From positions 1-64,000 of the forward strand of contig JAJDWI010000006.1 in NCBI GenBank assembly GCA_022825665.1: 64,000 nt of DNA. The letters run 5' to 3'. Positions 3,571 through 64,000 of this stretch are shown here, piece by piece (the stretch's first letter is position 1; each line of letters starts with the position of its first letter). The notes below the pieces were generated by a model. That model had not been told where the DNA came from, did no database searches, and was given only the letters and a program-made list of their open reading frames with translations. Position numbers and translations under genes: made by a program. The DNA comes from Candidatus Poribacteria bacterium. GTDB taxonomy: Bacteria > Poribacteria > WGA-4E > WGA-3G.

Positions 3571-3927
<357 letters not shown>

Positions 3928-3999
3928 CTACGCAAATTGGATAGGATTGTCTTGGCGGATCCAGAGATTCGCCTTAATTAGCCATAAGGTTGTTTTGTT

Positions 4000-4204: not shown

Positions 4205-5620
4205 CTATATATCGTGATAGAGAAAGAACTCATACGGATGAGGACGCATATTGATTGCATCTACCTCATTTTCACGCTTATAATCGATCCAGACATCAAG
4301 GACATCTTCCGTAAACACATCGCCTTTGAGGAGATATTCGTGGTCATCCTCAAGAGCATCAAGGGCGTCGCCAAGTGATACTGGCGTGGATTCAATCTCA
4401 TCAAGTTCCTCAGGTTCAAGATCGTAGAGGTCCTTATCCAGCGGATCACCAGGATGAATTCTGTTCTGAATTCCATCAAGACCAGCCATCATCAACGCAC
4501 TGAATGCAAGATACGGGTTACAAGATGGATCAGGTGTTCGGAACTCAACTCGCTTAGCCTTTTCACTCTTGGAATACACGGGAATACGAACACAGGCACT
4601 ACGGTTTCTTTGTGAGTAAGCGATATTAACCGGTGCTTCATAACCGGGGACTAACCGTTTATAGGAATTAGTTGTCGGAGCGATGATCGCACATAATGAC
4701 CGGGCATGTGCAAGTAAACCACCGATGTAATAAAGTGCTGTCTCACTTAGAAGTGAGTAACCTTGTGGATCAAAAAAGACATTCTTTCCATCTTTCCATA
4801 AACTTGTGTGCACGTGCATTCCTGAACCGTTGTCTTGGAAAAGCGGTTTTGGCATGAAAGTCGCTACGAGGTTATGTGAACGCGCAACATTCTTAACAAT
4901 ATATTTATACAAAGCAATTTTATCGCCAACAGTGGTTAACGTGTCATAGCGAATGTCAATTTCACCTTGTCCTGCTGTGCCTACCTCGTGGTGATGTACT
5001 TCTACATCTACGCCAGATTCAATAAGCTTTAAGCAGATCTCTGAACGGATATCTTGAAGCGTGTCTGACGGTGGAACGGGGAAATATCCCTCTTTATAGC
5101 GGGGTTTATAACCGAGGTTTGGATTTTCTTCTCGACCAGAATTCCAACTTCCCTCAACGGAATCAACGTGATAAAATCCAGAATTTTGAGTCTGACTGTA
5201 CCTTATATCGTTGAGAAGGTAGAACTCAGCTTCAGGTCCCCAATAACTTATATCAGCGATTCCTGTAGACTGAAGATAAGCCTCCGCTTTCTGCGCAATA
5301 TGCCTTACGTCACGAGTGTAATTTTCCAATGTTATTGGATCTTTGATATTACAGGTAATACTCAACGTTGGTATTTGGCAGACAGGGTCAACCAGTGCAG
5401 TTGCGGGGTCTGGGAATAGCAACATATCACTCTCGTTAATCGCCTGAAAACCACGGATACTTGACCCATCAAAACCGATTCCATCCGTAAACAAGTCCTC
5501 GCTCAATTCATCAACCATAATAGAGAAATGTTGCCACATCCCTGGTAGGTCCATGAATTTTAGGTCAACTATTTTAATATTCTTTTCTTTTGCAAGTGCA
5601 ACCACCTCACTTGGTGTCAT
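4205..5620 (-). CDS. glnA: Glutamine synthetase, type I
   Basis: The product makes glutamine from glutamate, ammonia and ATP as a cytoplasmic dodecamer. Visible family motifs include DGSSIRGF near the N-terminus, the metal/substrate segment VEVHHHEVGTAGQGEID, NGSGMHVHTSLW, and the ATP-binding KRLVPGYEAPVNIAYSQRNR. DLYDLEPEE near the C-terminus contains the tyrosine adenylylated in the GSI-beta subclass. The upstream ATG at 5626 is only 2 bases from AGGAGG, whereas the ATG at 5620 is 8 bases away, so I prefer the latter (471 aa). A sigma54-like promoter lies upstream and glnB downstream. Length is normal for the family. Confidence 0.96.
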   Translation of the reverse strand: MTPSEVVALAKEKNIKIVDLKFMDLPGMWQHFSIMVDELSEDLFTDGIGFDGSSIRGFQAINESDMLLFPDPATALVDPVCQIPTLSITCNIKDPITLENYTRDVRHIAQKAEAYLQSTGIADISYWGPEAEFYLLNDIRYSQTQNSGFYHVDSVEGSWNSGREENPNLGYKPRYKEGYFPVPPSDTLQDIRSEICLKLIESGVDVEVHHHEVGTAGQGEIDIRYDTLTTVGDKIALYKYIVKNVARSHNLVATFMPKPLFQDNGSGMHVHTSLWKDGKNVFFDPQGYSLLSETALYYIGGLLAHARSLCAIIAPTTNSYKRLVPGYEAPVNIAYSQRNRSACVRIPVYSKSEKAKRVEFRTPDPSCNPYLAFSALMMAGLDGIQNRIHPGDPLDKDLYDLEPEELDEIESTPVSLGDALDALEDDHEYLLKGDVFTEDVLDVWIDYKRENEVDAINMRPHPYEFFLYHDI

Positions 5621-5813: not shown

Positions 5814-5933
5814 CATAAGTTTCGTATAGAAACTAAACCGTTGAGAATAAGATGTCTACAAAGGAAAACGCAAGAAAGCGCAACAAAATATGCTAAATTA
5901 TTAGGCATAGAATTGCCCAAATTTTCAGCAGAA

Positions 5934-6527
5934 TCAGGATTCGTTCTTTTTCTTTAATTCAACATCTTCAGCAAATCGACTGGTTTCAGGTCCATCTTGA
6001 CCAGCATATTTATTCGCAGGTTTCAGACGGTAAGGCATACTTGATGGTGATGAAAGTTGTTCAAAAGTAAAAGCACAAATTCGCATACCCGGATAGAGTA
6101 AGACAGGCATCCGTCCGAGATTACCCAACTCCAATGTAGCGTTCCCAACCCAACCAGGATCGAATAGACCAGCGGTACTATGGACAATAATTCCGAGTCT
6201 ACCGACACTGCTTCTGCCTTCAAGCCGTGCCATCACGTCGTCCGCTAATTCCAGTTTTTCATGAGTTGCTGCGAGGACAAACTCACCCGGTTGCATCGTA
6301 AAAGCCTCACCATCAGGCACCTCCACTTTCCGCATCAGATCATCAGCGTCAACCTTTGTCTTTAAATCGATAAACGGGTATTTACTATGCTCAAAAACAC
6401 GAAAGGTATTGCCCAACCTGAAATCAATAGAACAACTTCCTAACTGTGTATCAAAATCTGGATCAGGAGTAATTTTAATTTTCCCTTCGCGTATATATTT
6501 TTCTATGTCAACATTTGATAAAACCAT
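5934..6527 (-). CDS. dcd: dCTP deaminase, probably dUMP-forming
   Basis: The 197-aa protein belongs to the trimeric dUTPase/dCTP deaminase fold: SCSIDFRLGN near residue 32 and the active-site segment EGRSSVGRLGIIVHSTAGLF, followed by DPGWVGNATLELGN. The catalytic general base is expected in the LEL segment. The C-terminal KYAGQDGPETSRF resembles the bifunctional dCTP deaminase/dUTPase enzymes (Mycobacterium-type), which convert dCTP directly to dUMP, rather than the E. coli enzyme. That functional subtype is inference. It supplies dUMP for thymidylate synthesis and stands alone between glnA and the GlcF-like gene. Confidence 0.92.
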   Translation of the reverse strand: MVLSNVDIEKYIREGKIKITPDPDFDTQLGSCSIDFRLGNTFRVFEHSKYPFIDLKTKVDADDLMRKVEVPDGEAFTMQPGEFVLAATHEKLELADDVMARLEGRSSVGRLGIIVHSTAGLFDPGWVGNATLELGNLGRMPVLLYPGMRICAFTFEQLSSPSSMPYRLKPANKYAGQDGPETSRFAEDVELKKKNES

Positions 6528-13634: not shown

Positions 13635-15995
13635 TTGAACAAACCACTAAAAGGATTCATTACTTATTCACACAAGGATGCAAAACAGAAAGATGAATTA
13701 CGAGAACATCTTGCTGTAATGGAGCAGCAAAACGAGTTAATAACTTGGGATGATTGCCAGCTCACTCCAGGGGACCAAGCACTTCAGGAAGATATTCTCG
13801 AAAAAGTTGCTGATTCAGATTTGCTTCTCTATCTCGTCTCCGCTGCCAGTCTCGCATCTAAAAACTGCAACAGGGAATTAGCAGAGGCATTGAAGCGAGA
13901 GATAAGAGTTATTCCCATTCTCCTTGAGCATTGTGATTGGCTCAACCATCAAATCAGTCGTTTTGAAGTGCTTCCTCACAAGGGTAAACCTATTAGTAAA
14001 TGGGAGGATCCGAGTGAAGGTTGGCAAAATGTCGTAGATGGGGTTCGAAAAGCTGTACACAAAAAGCAGGCTCAAAAGGATTCTCCATCTAGTAGACCTG
14101 AAGCAGACATACTCACTGGAGAGGTATTCCAATATGGAAATGTTCAATTGCTGCTTGGACAATTAAACAAGGCGATAGAAGCCTACTCAGATGTGATTGA
14201 ACTCAATCCACTTTTCGTTAATGCATATAATAACCGTGGAGTTGTTTATGCTATGCTTGGTAAGTTTGACAAAACTATTGCAGATATGAATGAGGCAATT
14301 AGACTTGAACCTAATTCCGCTGATGTCTACACAAACCGTGGGTTTGCTTATGCCAAGAAAGGCAATTACGATCGTGCCATTACAGATTATAAAAAAGCGA
14401 TTAAACTGAATCCGAATTTTTCTAATGCCTATACTAACCGCGGGATTGCTTATGCCGAGAAGAACGATTATGAACGCGCTATCGAAGATTATAATAAAGC
14501 AATAAGACTGAATCCAGATTTTCCTAACACTTATACCAACCGTGGAAATGCTTATGCTGAGAAAGGTGATTATAATCGTGCCATCAAAAACCATAACAAA
14601 GCAATAGAATTAGATCCAAATAATGCTAATGCCTATGCTAACCTTGGAAGTGTTCATGCCAAGAAAGGTGATTATGATCGTGCCATCAAAAACTGCAACA
14701 AAGCGATAAAACTAAATCCAAATTTTGCTAATGCTTATACTAATTGTGGGGTTGCATACGCCGGAAAAAACAATTATGAACTTGCCATTGACAACTTCAA
14801 CAAAGCAATAGAATTAGATCCAGACGCTGCTAATGCCTTTGCTAATCGTGGTGCTGCTTTCGCTATGCTTGGTGAGTTTGACAAAGCCTTCACAGATTTG
14901 AATGAGGCAATTAGGCTTAAACCCAATTCTGCTAATGCCTTTGCTAATCGTGGTGCTGCTTATAACGGAAAAAACGATTATGAACGTGCTATTACAGATC
15001 TTAATAAAGCAATAGAATTAGATCCAGATATTGCTCATGCTTACAGTAGTCTTGGTAATGCTTATGCCAAGAAAGGCAATTACAAAGTTGCTATTACAAA
15101 CCATAACAAAGCAATAAAACTGGATCCGAATTCTGCTGAGGCCTATAATAGTCGTGGCAATGCTTATGCCCAGAACGGTGATTATGATCGTGCTATAGAA
15201 GACTATAACAAAGCAATAGAGTTGGATCCAGATATTGCTCATGCTTACACTCACCGTGGTGCTGCTTATAACGGAAAAAACGATTATGAACGTGCTATTA
15301 TGGACCATAATAAAACGATAAAACTGGATCCGAATTCTGCTAATGCCTACATGAATCGTGGGGTTGCTTATGCCGGGAAGAATAACTATGAACACGCCAT
15401 AGAAGACTATAACAAGGCAATAGAGTTGGATCCAGATTTTGCTAATGCCTATACTAATCGCGGTCAAGCTTATGCTATGCGTGGTGAGTTTGATAAAGCT
15501 ATCACAGACCATACTACAGCAATAACCCTGCAAATTAATGATTATAGATTCTATAGCAATCGCGGTTATGCGTACTTCTGCAAAGGGGATTTTGACCCTG
15601 CAATAAAAGACTTTACAAAATCAATACAATTGGATCCCAAGCATGCTGATACTTATTATAATCGCGGGGCAGCTTACAGCAAAAAAAGCAAACTTGATAC
15701 GGTAATTGACGACTTCACCAAAGCTATTGAGTTAGAGCCCAATTATGCCGATATATACTTTAATTGTAGGATAGTCTATAGAAAAAAAGGTGAACTTGAC
15801 AAGGCAATTAATGACTTAACTAAAGCTATAAATCTCCGGTATGATTACGCCAAAGCCTATTTCGTTCGGGGCCTCGTGTGGTTTCATCTCAGAGAACGCG
15901 ATAGAGCCAAATCTGACTTAACAACTGCCAAAAATATGGGAATGGTTAATGTTTCTAATTTAGACAAAATCTTACAAGTATTGGAAAACTCTTAG
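13635..15995 (+). CDS. TIR domain - tetratricopeptide repeat fusion protein
   Basis: The N-terminal 145 residues form a bacterial TIR domain: KGFITYSHKD at the start, LTPGDQALQEDI, LLLYLVSAASLASKNCNREL, and VIPILLEHCDW, with PHKGKPISKWED near its end. The Glu of NCNREL (codon 13875-13877) sits where catalytic TIR NADases have their glutamate. About 17 TPR units (34 residues, type NAYxNRGxAYAxKGDYxxAIxDYNKAIELDP in outline) fill the rest. I choose TTG 13635 because GGAGG at 13622-13626 lies 8 bases before it; the GTG at 13620 overlaps that site. It may be an immune NADase effector or a signalling scaffold. There is no STAND ATPase domain. Divergent from the vWA gene. Confidence 0.83.
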   Translation: MNKPLKGFITYSHKDAKQKDELREHLAVMEQQNELITWDDCQLTPGDQALQEDILEKVADSDLLLYLVSAASLASKNCNRELAEALKREIRVIPILLEHCDWLNHQISRFEVLPHKGKPISKWEDPSEGWQNVVDGVRKAVHKKQAQKDSPSSRPEADILTGEVFQYGNVQLLLGQLNKAIEAYSDVIELNPLFVNAYNNRGVVYAMLGKFDKTIADMNEAIRLEPNSADVYTNRGFAYAKKGNYDRAITDYKKAIKLNPNFSNAYTNRGIAYAEKNDYERAIEDYNKAIRLNPDFPNTYTNRGNAYAEKGDYNRAIKNHNKAIELDPNNANAYANLGSVHAKKGDYDRAIKNCNKAIKLNPNFANAYTNCGVAYAGKNNYELAIDNFNKAIELDPDAANAFANRGAAFAMLGEFDKAFTDLNEAIRLKPNSANAFANRGAAYNGKNDYERAITDLNKAIELDPDIAHAYSSLGNAYAKKGNYKVAITNHNKAIKLDPNSAEAYNSRGNAYAQNGDYDRAIEDYNKAIELDPDIAHAYTHRGAAYNGKNDYERAIMDHNKTIKLDPNSANAYMNRGVAYAGKNNYEHAIEDYNKAIELDPDFANAYTNRGQAYAMRGEFDKAITDHTTAITLQINDYRFYSNRGYAYFCKGDFDPAIKDFTKSIQLDPKHADTYYNRGAAYSKKSKLDTVIDDFTKAIELEPNYADIYFNCRIVYRKKGELDKAINDLTKAINLRYDYAKAYFVRGLVWFHLRERDRAKSDLTTAKNMGMVNVSNLDKILQVLENS

Positions 15996-26185: not shown

Positions 26186-28336
26186 GTGATGCTACAACCG
26201 AACTCGAATCTTTCTACTGCCGGCAGTGCATACAGCCATATTGGTAAGCCTAACATGGTCGTTGGAAGGTATATAAAGACAACAACTGCCATCAATGATG
26301 AAGCGGATGCGTACAACAAACGTGGCATTGTTCATTGTGAAAATGGTGACTATAAGCAGGGAATCGCACAGTTTAACAAAGCGATCGCATTAGCACCAGA
26401 ATTTACCAGTGCCTATTACAATCGAGGCATCACTTACGCTCGCAAAGGCGATTTCGACAACGCTATCAAGAACTTCAATAAGACGATACAACTCAAACCG
26501 GATTATGCCAATGCTTACAACGGTCTCGGATTTGCTTACGCCAATAAAAACGATTTTGATAACGCCATAAAAAACTTTGATAAAGCAATACAACTTAACC
26601 CCGATGATGCTAAAGCATACTATAATCGCGGTACTGCTTACTTCAATATAGACGATTTAGACAATGCTCTAGAAGACTATAATAGATCAGTAAAACTAAA
26701 TTCCAATGAGGCAAACACCTATTACAATCGTGGACTTACTTACGCCAATAAAGACAATTTTGATAACGCTATAAAAGATTGTACTTCCGCTGTAGAACTT
26801 AAACCCAATTATGCTGAGGCATATAACTGTCGCGGTGCTGCTTACGCCAACAAAAGTGATTTTGATAATGCTATAAAAGACTATAACATAGCAATACAAC
26901 TCAAACCGGAGTGTGCTGGGTTCTATTACAATCGCGGTGCTGCTTACGCCAATAGAGACGATTTTGATAATGCTATAAAAGACTATAACATAGCAATACA
27001 ACTCAAACCGGATTTTACCGAGGTATACAACAACCGGGGTACTGCTTATGCTAATAAAGACGAATTGGATAATGCCATCATAGACTTTAATAAAGTAATA
27101 CAACTACAACCAAATTATGTCAACGCCTATCATAATCGAGGTACTGTTTACCTCAACAAAGGCGAGTCCAACAAAGCCATTAAAGACTTTAGTAGGGCTC
27201 TTGATCTGAATTCGGAGCATGTGGCCTTTATTTATAGAGGTCGCGGCTTGGCTTACTACGCAGAAGACAGATTCTACCGAGCAGTTGATGACTTTAGCAA
27301 AGTCTTAAGTCTCACACCGGACGACCCAGTTGTCTACTATAACCGCGGGTTAGCTTATCGCAATCTGCTGGTTTTTGAAAAAGCAATCCAAGACTTTACC
27401 AAAGCAATAAATCTCAAACCTGAGACAGCTGCCGATGCCTACACCCAGCGCGGTATAACCTACCACATCAAAGGGGATATAGACAAGGCGATTGAAGACT
27501 ATAACGCTGCAATCACGTTAGAGGCAGGATTTGCAGAGGCATGGACAGAACGCGGTAAAGCTTACCGTGATAAAGGCGAGGTGAACAAGGCGATTGAAGA
27601 TTACAATAAAGCGATCGAACTCAATCCAGAACTTGCTGAGCCTTATACTTTACGCGGTCTCATTCACACCGAACAGGGCGAGGTGAATAAGGCGATTGAA
27701 GATCATAGTAAAGCGATCGCGTGCTACCCGGATTTTGCTGAAGCATATCTCAATCGGGGGCAGGCTTACCACGCCAAAAACGATTTGGATAAGGCAATTG
27801 AAGATTACGATAAGGCAATACAACTCAATCCAGAACTTGTTGAGGTATACACGCATCGGGGTAAAGCGTATCACGACAAGGTTGAGTTAGACAGCGCGAT
27901 TGCGGATTATACTGAAGTCCTAAAACTCAGACCGAAGGTTGCTGAATACTATTACACACGGGGTGAGGCGTGGCTGCTTGCGAAAGATTGGGAAGAAGCG
28001 AAAACCGACCTGACAGCTGCACTCCTACAAGACGTAGATGTCGCCGCTGCGTTTCACAATACCTACAAGAGCATAGATGCCTTTGAACAGAAAATAGAGG
28101 ATCGTTTGCCAAAAGAGATTGTAGCATTATTGACACCACGAAGCGAGCCGTTTGAAATTGATAAAGAGGCGCGGATAGCATTAGGAATGAAGTATTACGG
28201 AGAAGATATACTCAGCAGTGGACTCGCGGCGCGCCTTGCGGGGGTACCACGCGAAGAGTTTTGGTATCTGATGGAGGACTACGGACATTATCTCTTGACT
28301 CTTGATGAAGAAGATCTCATCAATAGCGGATTTTAG
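26186..28336 (+). CDS. TPR-repeat protein with C-terminal UPF0175 antitoxin-like domain
   Basis: The 716-aa protein carries about 17 TPR units between residues 35 and 620 (typical unit: YNRGxAYANKxDFDNAIKDYN). The last 60 residues, IDKEARIALGMKYYGEDILSSGLAARLAG and onward to the end, match UPF0175, a small ribbon/helix antitoxin-like domain that is normally a stand-alone 80-100 residue protein. GGAGG sits 7 bases before the GTG and 10 before an alternative ATG at 26189. The next gene begins 2 bases after the stop and encodes a DUF3368 PIN-like protein, the usual partner of UPF0175. The protein may be an antitoxin whose long TPR array senses or binds something else. Confidence 0.82.
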   Translation: MMLQPNSNLSTAGSAYSHIGKPNMVVGRYIKTTTAINDEADAYNKRGIVHCENGDYKQGIAQFNKAIALAPEFTSAYYNRGITYARKGDFDNAIKNFNKTIQLKPDYANAYNGLGFAYANKNDFDNAIKNFDKAIQLNPDDAKAYYNRGTAYFNIDDLDNALEDYNRSVKLNSNEANTYYNRGLTYANKDNFDNAIKDCTSAVELKPNYAEAYNCRGAAYANKSDFDNAIKDYNIAIQLKPECAGFYYNRGAAYANRDDFDNAIKDYNIAIQLKPDFTEVYNNRGTAYANKDELDNAIIDFNKVIQLQPNYVNAYHNRGTVYLNKGESNKAIKDFSRALDLNSEHVAFIYRGRGLAYYAEDRFYRAVDDFSKVLSLTPDDPVVYYNRGLAYRNLLVFEKAIQDFTKAINLKPETAADAYTQRGITYHIKGDIDKAIEDYNAAITLEAGFAEAWTERGKAYRDKGEVNKAIEDYNKAIELNPELAEPYTLRGLIHTEQGEVNKAIEDHSKAIACYPDFAEAYLNRGQAYHAKNDLDKAIEDYDKAIQLNPELVEVYTHRGKAYHDKVELDSAIADYTEVLKLRPKVAEYYYTRGEAWLLAKDWEEAKTDLTAALLQDVDVAAAFHNTYKSIDAFEQKIEDRLPKEIVALLTPRSEPFEIDKEARIALGMKYYGEDILSSGLAARLAGVPREEFWYLMEDYGHYLLTLDEEDLINSGF

Positions 28337-56630: not shown

Positions 56631-57145
56631 GATTGTTGTCAGTTATCAGTTTTCAGTAGTCAGTTATCAGTTGTTGGAACAAGGATTTTCAGGATTAGTT
56701 ATCTGCTTAGTCAATGTTTCATTAATAATGATACAGTCTATCTCATTAATACAATAGTTTGTCAAGTTAAATTGTTGAATCTTGTTTGCTGTCAATTAGT
56801 TATACACCATGAGCGTTAATTTAGCGATTCTTGTCTGTCTGAATCGCTTGTTGTCTGAACCAGGATTTGCAGGATTTCAGGATTTCCAGGATTAGGAGTT
56901 AGTTATTATATATTCTGTTGTAAAGGATGAAAGGCTATCTATTGCAAAAGAACTTTGGCATATAAATTTTATCCTGAAAATTCTGGCAGACATAATTCAT
57001 GTCGGAGGTCGCTTTGCTCGCTCCTACCTACGGGCATGTATATGAGAATGCGGGCGAGGAGACCTTGCCCCTACGATAATGTAAGAACCGTAATGAATTC
57101 AGCGACTATATATGTATCTCCTCCTAAAATTGACGCGTATGGGTG
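56631..57145. repeat. Repeat-rich intergenic region
   Basis: Contains tandem TCAGTTATCAGTT words (56638-56672), GGATTTTCAGGATT repeats (56679-56696, 56856-56896), a GCGATTC...GAATCGC palindrome (56823-56845), a CATGTCGGAGGTCGCTTTGC copy (56999-57018), a GGGCGAGG-family copy (57045-57075) and a TAATGAATTCAGCGACTA fragment. No gene is supported. Confidence 0.6.
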
Positions 57146-58183
57146 TCAATTATTTTTTGTATTATACGTGATTTTCAGAAATTCGTCTAATTCTTCAAAG
57201 GTATCAAATATTTTGTCACATAGATTTTCAAAGAAGATGCTACGGGTCTCGTTGTAGACGGCGTATACGGGTTTGTTATGACGGGTGGCGTAGTTCATCT
57301 CGCTTAAAACACCGGGGGACAATTTGTCGGTGGGATAGATGACTACGACAAAATCACTCTGGTGGACGAACTGGTAATCCCGTGAAATAGTTCGGGTTTT
57401 TATCTGCTCAATGACATCATCATCTAACTCACTCATCGTTTCGGGTACGTTCAGCATGTCGTCATCTGCTTCTGCTTTGGAGAATGTGACAAGTGCCATG
57501 TCCTTTATGGCAAGCGGGTCGAAACAGATATATGATTTGGAAAGTTTTTCTCCTAACTTGCGTATTCTCTGTATTTCTTCGGGTGTGTCTCTTAAGAGTG
57601 TTATCGGATAACTGAGATAGAATTTCGGTTTTTCTGAAAAGAGTAGTTCATAGAAATTTACGAGATTATGTTGTCTTGCGACGGTGTAGTGCGGTTTTTC
57701 TGTGAGATGTGCAAGTTGTCTTGTAAGGAATTCTTCCTCGTCTAACCAGACGTTGAGGGCTGCTTTTCTGGTCCCTGACCATTGCGTGCTTTTTTCCATG
57801 CGTTGGTAGATGTCGGCTATGTTGTCAACGACATTGATGAACATATCGGGTGGAAGTATTTCTATGTCTTTGAATGAGAAGCCTTCCAGTAGGCTGCCAC
57901 GCCATCGGAAGCATGCGTGTAATCCTATGATTGCATGTTGATAGGCTTGGGCATCTCTTGCTATTTCGTAGAATGCGGTGCGTCGCGCAAGGGATAAGAC
58001 GGCTGGGTCGGAGTCGAGGACTTTTTCTGTGAAGTGGACGCGGGATTCTGCGGCTACGCGGTGCATGTAATCGCCTACGTTGAAGAATCCGATGTTGAGT
58101 TGTCGCTGGATGCAGAGTGCTTCGAAGTCTTTTATGAGTTCTTTGCGTCCTGAACAACTAATGCCTGTGCAGATGATGTTCAT
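57146..58183 (-). CDS. P-loop-like N-terminus fused to a nucleoside deoxyribosyltransferase-like domain
   Basis: The first 130 residues look like a nucleotide-kinase-type P-loop domain (MNIICTGISCSGRKELIKDF, then FFNVGDYMHRVA), but the Walker A is unusual: GISCSGRKE instead of GxxxxGK(S/T). From about residue 185 the protein resembles the NDT/DUF4406 fold: PKFYLSYPITLLRD, FVVVIYPTDKLSPGVLSEMNYATRHNKPVYAVY, where the Glu of SEM matches the catalytic glutamate of N-deoxyribosyltransferases. It may act on nucleotides. Its first 20 codons are duplicated 1.4 kb upstream, on the far side of the DUF2971 cassette. Confidence 0.6.
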   Translation of the reverse strand: MNIICTGISCSGRKELIKDFEALCIQRQLNIGFFNVGDYMHRVAAESRVHFTEKVLDSDPAVLSLARRTAFYEIARDAQAYQHAIIGLHACFRWRGSLLEGFSFKDIEILPPDMFINVVDNIADIYQRMEKSTQWSGTRKAALNVWLDEEEFLTRQLAHLTEKPHYTVARQHNLVNFYELLFSEKPKFYLSYPITLLRDTPEEIQRIRKLGEKLSKSYICFDPLAIKDMALVTFSKAEADDDMLNVPETMSELDDDVIEQIKTRTISRDYQFVHQSDFVVVIYPTDKLSPGVLSEMNYATRHNKPVYAVYNETRSIFFENLCDKIFDTFEELDEFLKITYNTKNN

Positions 58184-58196
58184 TGTTTGGTGACCT
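58125..58196. repeat. Direct repeat, left copy, flanking the DUF2971 cassette
   Basis: About 73 bases including the first 20 codons and the ribosome-site region of the P-loop/NDT gene. It is repeated at 59522-59594 in the same orientation with about five mismatches. Confidence 0.8.
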
Positions 58197-58254
58197 TAGT
58201 GCTGATATAACCTTTCTAAACTTGTGTCTTTGCCAGTGTTATCTAAAATAGACG

Positions 58255-58623
58255 CTATCCTTTAAATTCCGTAAAAATATCACCAAGTCTTACGGCTATA
58301 TCTTTAATTGTTCCTTCATTACCAAGACTAAGCATATCCATTTTTTTAGTTTCTGTATCAAAAGTTTTATAATAAATACAATATGTGAAACGATAAGAGC
58401 GGAACCAACTGTCTACATCCATGGCTGGAATTTCTCCTTTGAATCCTAAAACTATCATTTTAACCATTTTTTTATTCAAAGGAGGTTTTAAATGACTTAA
58501 TAATAATTCCTCGTAAAGAACCCAATTAATATCTACTAATGACCAATCTATAGAAAAATCTTCTGCTTCTTCTTTCAGAATTTGTTCAAATTTTTTGTCA
58601 ACAACAACCTTTATTTTTTTCAT
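58255..58623 (-). CDS. Unknown small protein paired with a DUF2971 protein
   Basis: I do not recognise this 122-aa protein. It is soluble, with no membrane segment; a basic start (MKKIKVVVDKKFEQILKEEA) precedes an aromatic-rich centre (WFRSYRFTYCIYYKTF). Its ATG overlaps the TAA of the DUF2971 gene (TAATG), so the two are translated together, as in many toxin-antitoxin or abortive-infection pairs. Base composition is more AT-rich than in the neighbours. Confidence 0.6.
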   Translation of the reverse strand: MKKIKVVVDKKFEQILKEEAEDFSIDWSLVDINWVLYEELLLSHLKPPLNKKMVKMIVLGFKGEIPAMDVDSWFRSYRFTYCIYYKTFDTETKKMDMLSLGNEGTIKDIAVRLGDIFTEFKG

Positions 58624-59471
58624 TATAAACCTCCGTCTGTGATAATTTCGTCTAAAGCAGGAGAGTCTAAAAGTGTTGATGGATTAACTCGAAAATTAAA
58701 TCCGTATTTGTCAACTACTGATCTGACAGTCTCTGTAATCCAATTCTCGGCATAAGGTGAAACAATGACTTCATCAATTAACGTATCAACATCAATATTA
58801 AAAAGCATGCCGATATCACATATATCCGGCAATCCAATCTCTAAAAAAGAGTCTACAGTCTGATTATTTAAAGCGTCCATGACGAAAGGATCAATATCAA
58901 CGACTAACCGAACTTCTTGCTCATGTTCATATTCTTTTCTCTTTTGGAAATAAGGGAAATATGTCAACTTTTTAGCTAATGGGATTTCGCTGTTTAGAAA
59001 GTTTTGCATATATTGGTTGTCATCTGTGTTATCATAGATATACTCTATTTTACCGATATAAATAGAATGTGTGTTTGTTAGACTATTTTTCATTTTTTGC
59101 ATAGTTGTTTTGATAGCAACACCACTGTTACGCATGTAATATTTTTCCCACATTGCCATCGACTCTACTATATTCTGATGCCAGCAGTTACACATAACAT
59201 ATTTACGAGAATCTTCATTTCTTTTCATTATTGCTTCTACAAACTCTTCTGGTGCAACACGCGTAAGGGAATGTTTGTAAGCATCTATAATACTTTGTGG
59301 TATAAATCCTTCGTATGGATCCTCAAATTTATCAGCTCTTGTAAAAAACAAAGATTCTGTAACTAATAAATTAACAAATTTCTCAAAGTTTGTGTATCGC
59401 CACAAAGTATCTTCATCGTTTGGAGGATTAATTCCCTCTAATTCTTCATACATTAAAAACACCTTATACAA
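58623..59471 (-). CDS. DUF2971 family protein (possible phage-defence/Abi-type)
   Basis: The 282-aa protein shows typical DUF2971 segments: LWRYTNFEKFVNLLV, SLFFTRADKFEDPYEG (about residues 37-55), CNCWHQNIVESMAMWEKY (about 94-112), GVAIKTTMQ, a KRKEYEHEQEVRLVV segment where the family has a conserved E-x-E-x-R, and VIVSPYAENW. The biochemical activity is not established to my knowledge; members frequently sit in defence islands and resemble the AbiGi group. It forms a two-gene unit with the downstream 122-aa gene inside a repeat-flanked insert. Confidence 0.75.
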   Translation of the reverse strand: MYKVFLMYEELEGINPPNDEDTLWRYTNFEKFVNLLVTESLFFTRADKFEDPYEGFIPQSIIDAYKHSLTRVAPEEFVEAIMKRNEDSRKYVMCNCWHQNIVESMAMWEKYYMRNSGVAIKTTMQKMKNSLTNTHSIYIGKIEYIYDNTDDNQYMQNFLNSEIPLAKKLTYFPYFQKRKEYEHEQEVRLVVDIDPFVMDALNNQTVDSFLEIGLPDICDIGMLFNIDVDTLIDEVIVSPYAENWITETVRSVVDKYGFNFRVNPSTLLDSPALDEIITDGGL

Positions 59472-59521
59472 GGATAATAAAAATTCTTACGCAACCTATC
59501 GTATATCTGTTCCCCTCATCA

Positions 59522-59594
59522 AAGTCTTTTATGAGTTCTTTGCGTCCTGAGCAACTGATGCCTGTACAGATGATGTTCATTGTTTAGTTACCTT
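59522..59594 (-). pseudogene. Truncated 5' copy of the P-loop/NDT gene (right direct repeat)
   Basis: On the minus strand ATG at 59580 opens MNIICTGISCSGRKELIKDF, identical in sequence to the start of the 57146-58183 product, then diverges into DEG and unrelated sequence. It marks the right boundary of the cassette. The ancestral gene start probably lay here before insertion or duplication. Confidence 0.75.
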
Positions 59595-59912
59595 TACTTG
59601 TTCTCAAGTTCTCTACTTATTCTCCCATTCTCTGTAGGAGCGACCGACGAATACCCATATACGTCAATTTTAGGATCTGTCTGAACCAGGATTTTCAGGA
59701 TTACAGGATTTTCAGGATAAGAGAGTGGTATGCCAATGTTACTTGGCAAAGGTAGCCCTTCATCCTGGACAACGGAATATATATATACACAAACTCCTAA
59801 TCCTGAAAATCTTGGTTCAGACAAAATACATGTCGGAGGTCGCTACGCTCGCTTAGACCTACAATATAAACTCAGGTTCGGTTAGGAAACTGAACCTACC
59901 GTTATGGCGTAC
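59595..59912. repeat. Repeat-rich intergenic region upstream of the cassette
   Basis: Holds a CTGAACCAGGATTTTCAGG repeat (about 59676-59716), its inverted copy (about 59791-59822), so that they enclose some 75 bases, a CATGTCGGAGGTCGCTACGC copy (59828-59848) and a GGTTAGGAAACTGAACCTACC palindrome (about 59878-59900). No gene is supported. Confidence 0.6.
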
Positions 59913-60716
59913 TTACTCCCTTTCTGCTGCTAAGGATTTTAGTTTTGCGAGTGCTTCTTGCTCCTCTTCTATCCAAGGTCGGTGTGCGGGTTTGTCCAAC
60001 TTTTGGGACGGACCGCTGAAGACAAGGATATATGCCCTACGTTCTTGGTCTGTGCTGTTGGGTGCAGAATAGTGTAGGGTGCGACAATGATGGAACGTTG
60101 CTCCGCCTGCGGGTATGGGACATACTACTGCCTCTGATGGATCAACATCATCGGTGACTAAGCCGTGTACGAGTGGATCGTTGTTGATGTGCCGATGCCA
60201 ACGCACGTCGCCTTTGTGGGATTTAGGGATAAAATGGAGACATCCACTTTCAAGCGTTGCTTTGTCAAGGGGAAGCCAAACGCTCAAACTATGTGGCAGG
60301 ACGGTTGGATTCCAATATGCTTCGTCTTGGTGCCACGGGGTTTCGTTTCCGTAGTTTGCAGGCTTTAGTATCATGTGTCCACCGCCACCGACATTTTCCA
60401 TTTCAACGCTGAGCAGTTTTGCTGCGAGTCTGCGTGCGTTTTGGAAATAGATAGATTCTCGGAGTTCAGGGAATTGTGCTTCAGGACCTAAGACTTGGGG
60501 TAGTGTCTCTCTACCTTTATGTGCACGGGGACCTGCTAAATCAAAATAACGTCCCTGTTCCTCACCTGTGCGTTCAGTGAAGAGTTCATCGTAAATTCCC
60601 TTGAGCCATTCTATTTCTTTATCAGTCGTGATGCGCGGAATGCTGAGATATCCGTTTTCTTGAAAAAAGGTTACTTGTTCGTCGGTTATATCCACATGAA
60701 AATCGTTGTTATTCAT
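59913..60716 (-). CDS. Phytanoyl-CoA dioxygenase (PhyH) family protein
   Basis: A non-haem Fe(II)/2-oxoglutarate oxygenase of 267 aa from the ATG at 60716 (the frame extends 6 codons to a TTG without support). FFQENGYLSIPRI is the family start. TPWHQDEAYW gives the His-x-Asp iron ligands, and GATFHHCRTLHYSAPN with ERRAYILVF gives the distal His and the 2-oxoglutarate-binding Arg. Substrate unknown; bacterial PhyH enzymes hydroxylate lipids, amino acids or secondary metabolites. This family is often expanded in Poribacteria-like genomes. Confidence 0.88.
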   Translation of the reverse strand: MNNNDFHVDITDEQVTFFQENGYLSIPRITTDKEIEWLKGIYDELFTERTGEEQGRYFDLAGPRAHKGRETLPQVLGPEAQFPELRESIYFQNARRLAAKLLSVEMENVGGGGHMILKPANYGNETPWHQDEAYWNPTVLPHSLSVWLPLDKATLESGCLHFIPKSHKGDVRWHRHINNDPLVHGLVTDDVDPSEAVVCPIPAGGATFHHCRTLHYSAPNSTDQERRAYILVFSGPSQKLDKPAHRPWIEEEQEALAKLKSLAAERE

Positions 60717-62809: not shown

Positions 62810-64000
62810 TCAAACAGTCGTTTTTCTCAATATAAGCAAGTATTCTGACTTCATTCCATCGGGGTTTTTATTCTTACGCACTCCGAACAGTTGGCGTGTC
62901 TTAATCCTATCTTCGTAAACTTTTTCAAATTGGTAACCGCGTTCTGTAAAATATTCTACTAAGATTCTCCAGAGTTCAACAGTAATACCATCAATGCGTG
63001 GATTACCCACAAAAATACATGCGGATGCATTCGGTTTCAATCGGTTCATGGTATTTTCAAGTGCGTTTATCGTGTGGCAAAAGTAGGAGTCAAGGCGATT
63101 GCATAGGTCTTGACGAGTGAGTTTGTCCCTGATATTGTCCAATGTTTTTGTATGTATAATACGATCTGCTTTCCGATACGGGATTTCAAGACGTGATAAC
63201 GTTTGAATCTCTTCATCGTTATGTCCTAACCAGTAGAGATCCATCTTTGTTGAGCGGATGTATTCTTGTGCTTGTAGATAAGGAGGAGAAGTGATAAGTG
63301 CGTCACATTCGCGTGGTAAATCAATATAAGAAGAATCAACGCCGCCATGAAAATCTACCTGATTATTATGATGTCGTGTGAGTGTTACAAAGTCGTTTAT
63401 GCGATTTAATGTTTTGAAGGAGTGGTCGTAGACTATATCAATAAGCTGTTCTCTCCAATTTTCCGTGAGTAGTTCTTCAATTGTAGCTAACTTACGTTTG
63501 GATCTGGCTAATTTTGGTGTTCTGTGTTCGGTGTAGGAGAAGCGTTTGCTGACCTTTAGTAGTGCTGCTTTGATAATACCAGTATATGCGTCTTGTTCTA
63601 TATTATGGATATACCCCCAATATTGCGAAAGCAGCTCTAAGATTTCAGGTGCGTACCAATAGTTGACATTGGACCAGGAAGGAGTAAAACGGTGTGTATT
63701 ATTCTTTATCATACCGTCTAATAGATTTCCTAACGATTCTATCTTCAGCCGTTCTTTTCCGCGATAAACCTTTAGCGGCATAATGTGATTTAAAAACAGG
63801 TTTAAGTCAAAGAGGATGGCGTTACGTTTGCATAGATATGCTTCCACGCCTACAGTTCCTGAACCGGCGAACGGGTCAATAATCCAATCACCTTCTTTTG
63901 TGTAGGTGTTTATTGCATATCTGACAACTTGAGGGATGAATTTTGCGGGGTATGAGACGATGGCATGGGTAAGGTAACCTGTGTCGGTGATTTCTGGGAC
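62810..64000 (-). CDS. DNA methyltransferase, 5' end outside the window
   Basis: The frame is open to the window edge and its start is missing; 396 codons plus the stop are visible. Near the edge is WIIDPFAGSGTVGVE (AdoMet-binding motif I), preceded by THAIVSYPAKFIPQVVRYAI. The catalytic motif TSPPY (in DALITSPPYLQAQEYIR) follows some 190 residues later. This order, motif I before motif IV, differs from beta-class enzymes. The spacer is long and basic (KLARSKRKLATIEELL). Target base (adenine N6 or cytosine N4) cannot be decided; ASACIFVGNPRIDG and SEYLLILRK complete the fold. No restriction partner is visible downstream. Confidence 0.8.
   Translation of the reverse strand, partial: VPEITDTGYLTHAIVSYPAKFIPQVVRYAINTYTKEGDWIIDPFAGSGTVGVEAYLCKRNAILFDLNLFLNHIMPLKVYRGKERLKIESLGNLLDGMIKNNTHRFTPSWSNVNYWYAPEILELLSQYWGYIHNIEQDAYTGIIKAALLKVSKRFSYTEHRTPKLARSKRKLATIEELLTENWREQLIDIVYDHSFKTLNRINDFVTLTRHHNNQVDFHGGVDSSYIDLPRECDALITSPPYLQAQEYIRSTKMDLYWLGHNDEEIQTLSRLEIPYRKADRIIHTKTLDNIRDKLTRQDLCNRLDSYFCHTINALENTMNRLKPNASACIFVGNPRIDGITVELWRILVEYFTERGYQFEKVYEDRIKTRQLFGVRKNKNPDGMKSEYLLILRKTTV

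Follow-up and report, generated by a model that had tools for sequence, protein, structure and literature searches.

A DUF2971 gene pair in a Poribacteria defence hotspot that has no integrase and retains orphan tips of its two boundary genes

The entry of defence genes into integrase-free islands has so far largely been inferred from the statistics of flanking genes. Insertions with a long target duplication go back to Nobusato et al. (2000); as PMC1643837 and PMC2749054 recount them, long direct repeats surround an insert in which restriction-modification (R-M) genes are frequent, an arrangement that suggests gene mobility. Homology-facilitated illegitimate recombination, and the arrays of orphan immunity and Rhs genes (PMC5361080; PMC3240628), involve one homologous and one illegitimate end. 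Finally, Oliveira et al. 2017 (PMC5635113) described integrase-free hotspots in which the core genes on the flanks are the sites of recombination.

The locus considered here lies in a stretch of 64,000 nucleotides (the window) of a contig (JAJDWI010000006.1) from a sponge-dwelling Candidatus Poribacteria bacterium. It shares with long target duplications, as those accounts portray them, a long direct repeat around an insert and a single copy in an empty relative, but here the repeat is the end of a boundary gene and its length varies between genomes, the cargo includes toxin-antitoxin (TA) and DUF2971 modules, and the two copies of one genome come from different lineages. As in the orphan immunity and Rhs arrays, displaced old gene parts are kept beside a new module; unlike those arrays, the parts belong to ordinary boundary genes of a defence hotspot, 5' tips coming from one neighbour and 3' tips from the other, and have no evident function. 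Varied acquired genes between conserved neighbours, the absence of visible mobile-element genes and the exchange at the flanks recall the hotspots of Oliveira et al.; the tips, however, record single events, whereas a double crossover in the flanks would leave none. Because each acquisition leaves a tip of a neighbouring gene, single events become visible and testable.

A two-gene unit between a gene start and its copy

The first-pass annotation had described a two-gene cassette flanked by 73-bp direct repeats derived from a gene start. The flanking repeat stands, with a length of 76 bp and with every feature on the minus strand:

57146..58183, minus strand: host gene (right boundary), 345 aa, intact, with an AAA_17 P-loop N-terminus and a nucleoside 2-deoxyribosyltransferase (NDT)-like C-terminus (ORF, Pfam)
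58122..58197, minus strand: working copy of the direct repeat, spanning host-gene positions -14 to about +61
58255..58623, minus strand: 122-aa ORF, companion of DUF2971 (putative antitoxin, immunity protein or partner), without Pfam or NCBIfam match
58623..59453, minus strand: DUF2971 gene, 276 aa, ATG at 59453 (PF11185, PADLOC PDC-S31, predicted DarT-like ADP-ribosyltransferase fold)
59464..59580, minus strand: orphan-tip mini-ORF, 20 host-gene codons followed by 18 unrelated codons (sequence reading)
59519..59594, minus strand: direct repeat, orphan upstream copy, 92% identical (repeat search)
59913..60716, minus strand: left boundary gene, phytanoyl-CoA dioxygenase (PhyH) family (PF05721, E 2.3e-32), a conserved neighbour of the host gene by synteny

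The two repeat copies agree at 70 of 76 positions (6 mismatches; spacing 1397). Within the window the next best ungapped 76-mer match reaches 42/76, and no other direct repeat of at least 50 bp at 90% identity is present. A search of the window's own genome returned these two places only, the second copy with an E value of 1.8e-25, so the pair is not a chance resemblance. The same 20 residues, MNIICTGISCSGRKELIKDF, are encoded by each copy, and the copy nearer the gene is its working start; the insert thus regenerates the 5' end of an intact host gene, as had been read at first sight. None of the four coding differences between the copies changes a residue, an outcome with p 0.002-0.01 under neutrality. 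Since some of these synonymous changes fall in the working copy, they were not used as evidence for a donor allele. The host gene itself, of housekeeping type, matches PF13207 (E 2.7e-8) and, just under Pfam's cut-off, PF05014 (E 3e-6), and has orthologues in 48 of 60 relatives.

Between the repeats lie only DUF2971 and the family-less 122-aa ORF, overlapping by TAATG, and no integrase or transposase, in agreement with the earlier reading. Nowhere else in the window is GC as low over 1.2 kb as in this unit, at about 32% where the mean is 41%, and this foreign composition, together with its absence from close relatives, bears out its description as acquired. The far repeat copy, the orphan tip, runs into the 38-codon mini-ORF, whose stop lies 10 nt before the DUF2971 ATG and which may act as a leader or couple its translation to that of DUF2971. 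Since homology among copies of the pair begins right at the ribosome site, expression would depend on an upstream leader; a promoter scan gave no match above chance.

A transposon does not fit the unit, the repeat search of the window finding no inverted repeat pair at the cassette ends and the repeat length not being fixed between genomes. A phage or plasmid origin was set aside as well: relatives of the small ORF are absent from viral contigs and plasmids, and one distant DUF2971 occurs in a phage. An assembly artefact is unlikely, part of the same junctions being independently present in another genome, G015.

Other repeats and genes were recorded in the window. A dispersed intergenic repeat, TGTCTGAACCAGGATTTTCAGGATTA, flanks the locus in direct and inverted orientation (56672-56877 and 59678-59823). 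Tandem repeats of 102 bp with about 70% identity, at 14195-15740 and 26317-27844, are probably repeat-containing coding regions. A 345-aa ORF without Pfam match at 62810-63847 (minus strand) carries TSPPY, a motif characteristic of amino-DNA methyltransferases.

A defence hotspot confined to one genus

A PhyH-family gene precedes the host gene across the family. The search for an uninterrupted gene start, proposed in the first-pass annotation, found PhyH adjoining the host gene with a single start in three genomes (G014, G008 and G011) and in ten genomes of other genera, the spacing being about 14-307 bp in the ten genomes outside the genus, 58 bp in G008 and G011 within it, and 324 bp in G014, whose gene product is 98% identical to that of the window. 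The two-copy arrangement is therefore neither ancestral nor universal, and a conserved regulatory duplication common to all relatives was not seen. When G014 is taken as the empty site, the right flank matches and the left intergenic flank has diverged after about 100 bp, so that the site is not clean on its left side. Parts of both junctions are common to G000 and G015, which leaves the count of independent insertions uncertain.

The gap between PhyH and the NDT gene is a defence hotspot that is confined to the genus and has no integrase of its own. In other species it is occupied by different cargo. G003 has a type III R-M system, and G015 another, distinct one together with a ThsB-like TIR protein. 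Type IIG enzymes are present in G016 and in G007, the latter also holding RmrA-like, DUF4411 and HigA-like proteins. HigBA (Gp49 and antidote) is found in G017 and a DUF4258 pair in G013, the small partner of DUF4258 surviving as a relic in several other genomes. PIN modules also occur among the cargo of the genus, and several cargoes sit outside any repeat pair. In G015 the toxin-side gene of the DUF2971 pair is gone and the small partner kept, as is the case for DUF4258 in G003 and G017. The hotspot of G001 is split over three contigs, which carry a type IIG gene with a tip of the host gene (locus L158, 13960-14101), the end of a TA partner with a tip (L156, 4943-5011) and the gene itself without PhyH (L108, 12249-12593, reverse strand); a rearrangement seems to run through it.

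Origin of the orphan tips

Of the 18 genomes searched within the genus, six (G000, G001, G003, G013, G015 and G017) possess extra copies of the gene start; none of the 41 genomes from the rest of the family does, a weak match in G060 not having been reproduced. These orphan starts set in near -14 to -27. They stop at about +61 in G000, at +105 in G003, G017 and G013, at about +107 in G015 and at about +150 in G001, and the cargo beside them differs between genomes. In a tree of the first 105 nt, the tips fall into three lineage-specific groups. Those of G003, G017 and G001 cluster, and in G003 and G017 they adjoin the same TA relic; the G000 and G015 tips are placed with other lineages, the tip of G000 belonging to the same lineage as its own gene. 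The opposite boundary behaves as a mirror image: in G017 (locus L035, G017:C144:17000-27000), orphan 3' tips of PhyH lie on both sides of HigBA, at 4965-5034 (71 bp) and 5814-6012 (199 bp), and a further PhyH 3' tip is listed at 3734-3932 of the same locus. The phenomenon is more general than first noted: at this integrase-free defence hotspot, acquisitions leave behind orphan tips of the one boundary gene and of the other.

The two copies in G015 speak most directly for recombination at the boundary gene. Beyond +204, its gene groups with those of G006 and G012 with full support. Of the diagnostic sites of the gene, those at 73-129 are of the other clade's type (8/8), and most of the remainder agree with G006 and G012 (p 0.0002 in a longest-run permutation test). 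At sites 45-99, the orphan tip has the native type. The functional gene start of G015 is therefore a mosaic and its orphan tip native, as expected if the cargo brought its own gene start and left that of the recipient behind. In the window's own genome, the gene follows G014 and G002 along its full length, with no visible mosaic or foreign tract.

We consider these patterns best explained by recombination at the boundary genes of an integrase-free hotspot, combined with a foreign, selected two-gene cargo that probably encodes an ADP-ribosyltransferase-like effector and its antidote or regulator, a reading to which we assign a probability of roughly 0.6. Incoming DNA from a relative would carry the cargo joined to the boundary gene; one end would recombine homologously inside that gene, and the other would be joined at a non-homologous or micro-homologous point. 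The donor would thereby supply a complete new gene start, keeping the host gene intact, and the old start of the recipient would be stranded as an orphan tip beyond the cargo. Unrelated cargoes would in this way come to lie between direct repeats whose length varies. The copy in the window would have arisen by the same route.

The variation of tip ends and cargo, the lack of a recombinase and the occurrence of tips on both sides argue against att integration and against a target duplication of fixed size. The likeness to an att site, to which the first-pass annotation had drawn attention, does extend to the regeneration of the gene end, but an integrase-mediated element is very improbable: the insert contains no integrase, no constant att core is found among the carriers, and the other DUF2971 loci have no such repeats. 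An end-joining or transposition-like event duplicating about 75-130 bp, as described for Helicobacter R-M units, is unlikely. It accounts for a repeat at both ends, a single copy in relatives, defence-type cargo and a missing recombinase, and also for the common lineage of tip and gene in G000; a tip length that differs among genomes, the two lineages represented in the copies of G015 and the PhyH tips on the opposite side weigh against it.

Slightly less likely still is a single old partial duplication of the gene start, followed by unrelated insertions and deletions between the copies. The clustering of the G003, G017 and G001 tips, and the TA relic shared beside two of them, would be natural under such a history, and gene conversion could have masked a common origin, but the tips of G000 and G015 fall with other lineages, and both cargo and tip ends differ. 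Integration of the Campbell type, in which a cassette circle recombines homologously within the gene start and the resulting repeats would permit loop-out, predicts direct repeats with an intact gene, suits the empty close relative and is compatible with the mosaic of G015; we nevertheless hold it to be improbable, because no circle was seen, the tips are truncated at differing points and there are cargoes outside any repeat pair. Recombination at the boundary genes, our preferred reading, can tentatively be extended: integrase-free defence islands might in general expand through one-sided recombination events at both of their boundary genes, each leaving a datable tip, so that the tips would reveal in which order and from which donors defence genes were acquired, and the DUF2971 unit might be a new ADP-ribosyltransferase-type TA or defence system with exchangeable small partners, although we regard this wider proposal as doubtful.

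DUF2971 and its exchangeable small partners

DarT is a DNA ADP-ribosyltransferase toxin. The DUF2971 protein of the window matches PF11185 (E 9.5e-8) and PADLOC PDC-S31 (E 1.7e-25), a candidate entry whose S label denotes recognition by a single gene; in the present case a conserved small partner accompanies it. Its AlphaFold2 model (pLDDT 86.9) retrieved DarT chains as the top six matches in the PDB, with probabilities of 0.95-0.99 and E values of 1.4e-3 to 6.2e-3 at low TM scores of 0.33-0.38, followed by weak fold matches to tRNA 2'-phosphotransferases. Across 22 sequences E178, E180 and R182 are invariant and R19 nearly so, putative counterparts of the catalytic glutamate and NAD-binding arginine of DarT-type enzymes. 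DarT thus comes first among solved structures for the predicted fold, and DarTG likewise forms a two-gene operon, but there is no sequence match to DarT, and neither a macrodomain nor NADAR is recognised in the partner. Almost no literature on the DUF2971 domain was found in the library searched.

Relatives of DUF2971 with up to 76% identity occur in Candidatus Poribacteria records. Purifying selection acts on both genes, with dN/dS of 0.18-0.25 for DUF2971 against G025 and G027, which belong to another genus, and 0.31-0.40 for the 122-aa ORF against its relatives, or 0.31-0.34 when these are of another genus. The 122-aa protein has no Pfam or NCBIfam match, and a fold search gave no confident match. 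Its family adjoins DUF2971, on either side, at 10 of 17 small-ORF loci (at one of the ten, only a DUF2971 fragment is left) and stands alone at several loci. DUF2971 comes first in the window, and the partner first in several other genomes. DUF2971 pairs were thus found elsewhere. Among these other DUF2971 or small-ORF loci, flanking repeats were seen at two, as short pairs that resemble chance matches; the long repeat therefore belongs to the site rather than to the gene pair.

The pair resembles type II-like TA systems in being two small co-directional genes that overlap by TAATG and are found together. With the PDC-S31 match, a hotspot rich in R-M and TA modules and the DarT-like fold, it is probably a TA-like defence unit, much as the first-pass annotation had ventured. 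More specifically, we lean slightly towards an ADP-ribosyltransferase-like effector accompanied by an antidote or regulator; the loss of the toxin-like gene and retention of the small one in G015 fit an antidote role. The locus connects DUF2971 with a DarT-like fold, with a defence context and with two small partners that can take each other's place, and so offers a concrete biochemical test. At five loci an unrelated 105-aa family replaces the 122-aa partner upstream of DUF2971, and profile comparison found no relation between the two families; members of the 105-aa family (alignment A5) were recorded in other Poribacteria at L192 (2661-2975), L193, L194, L203 and L204.
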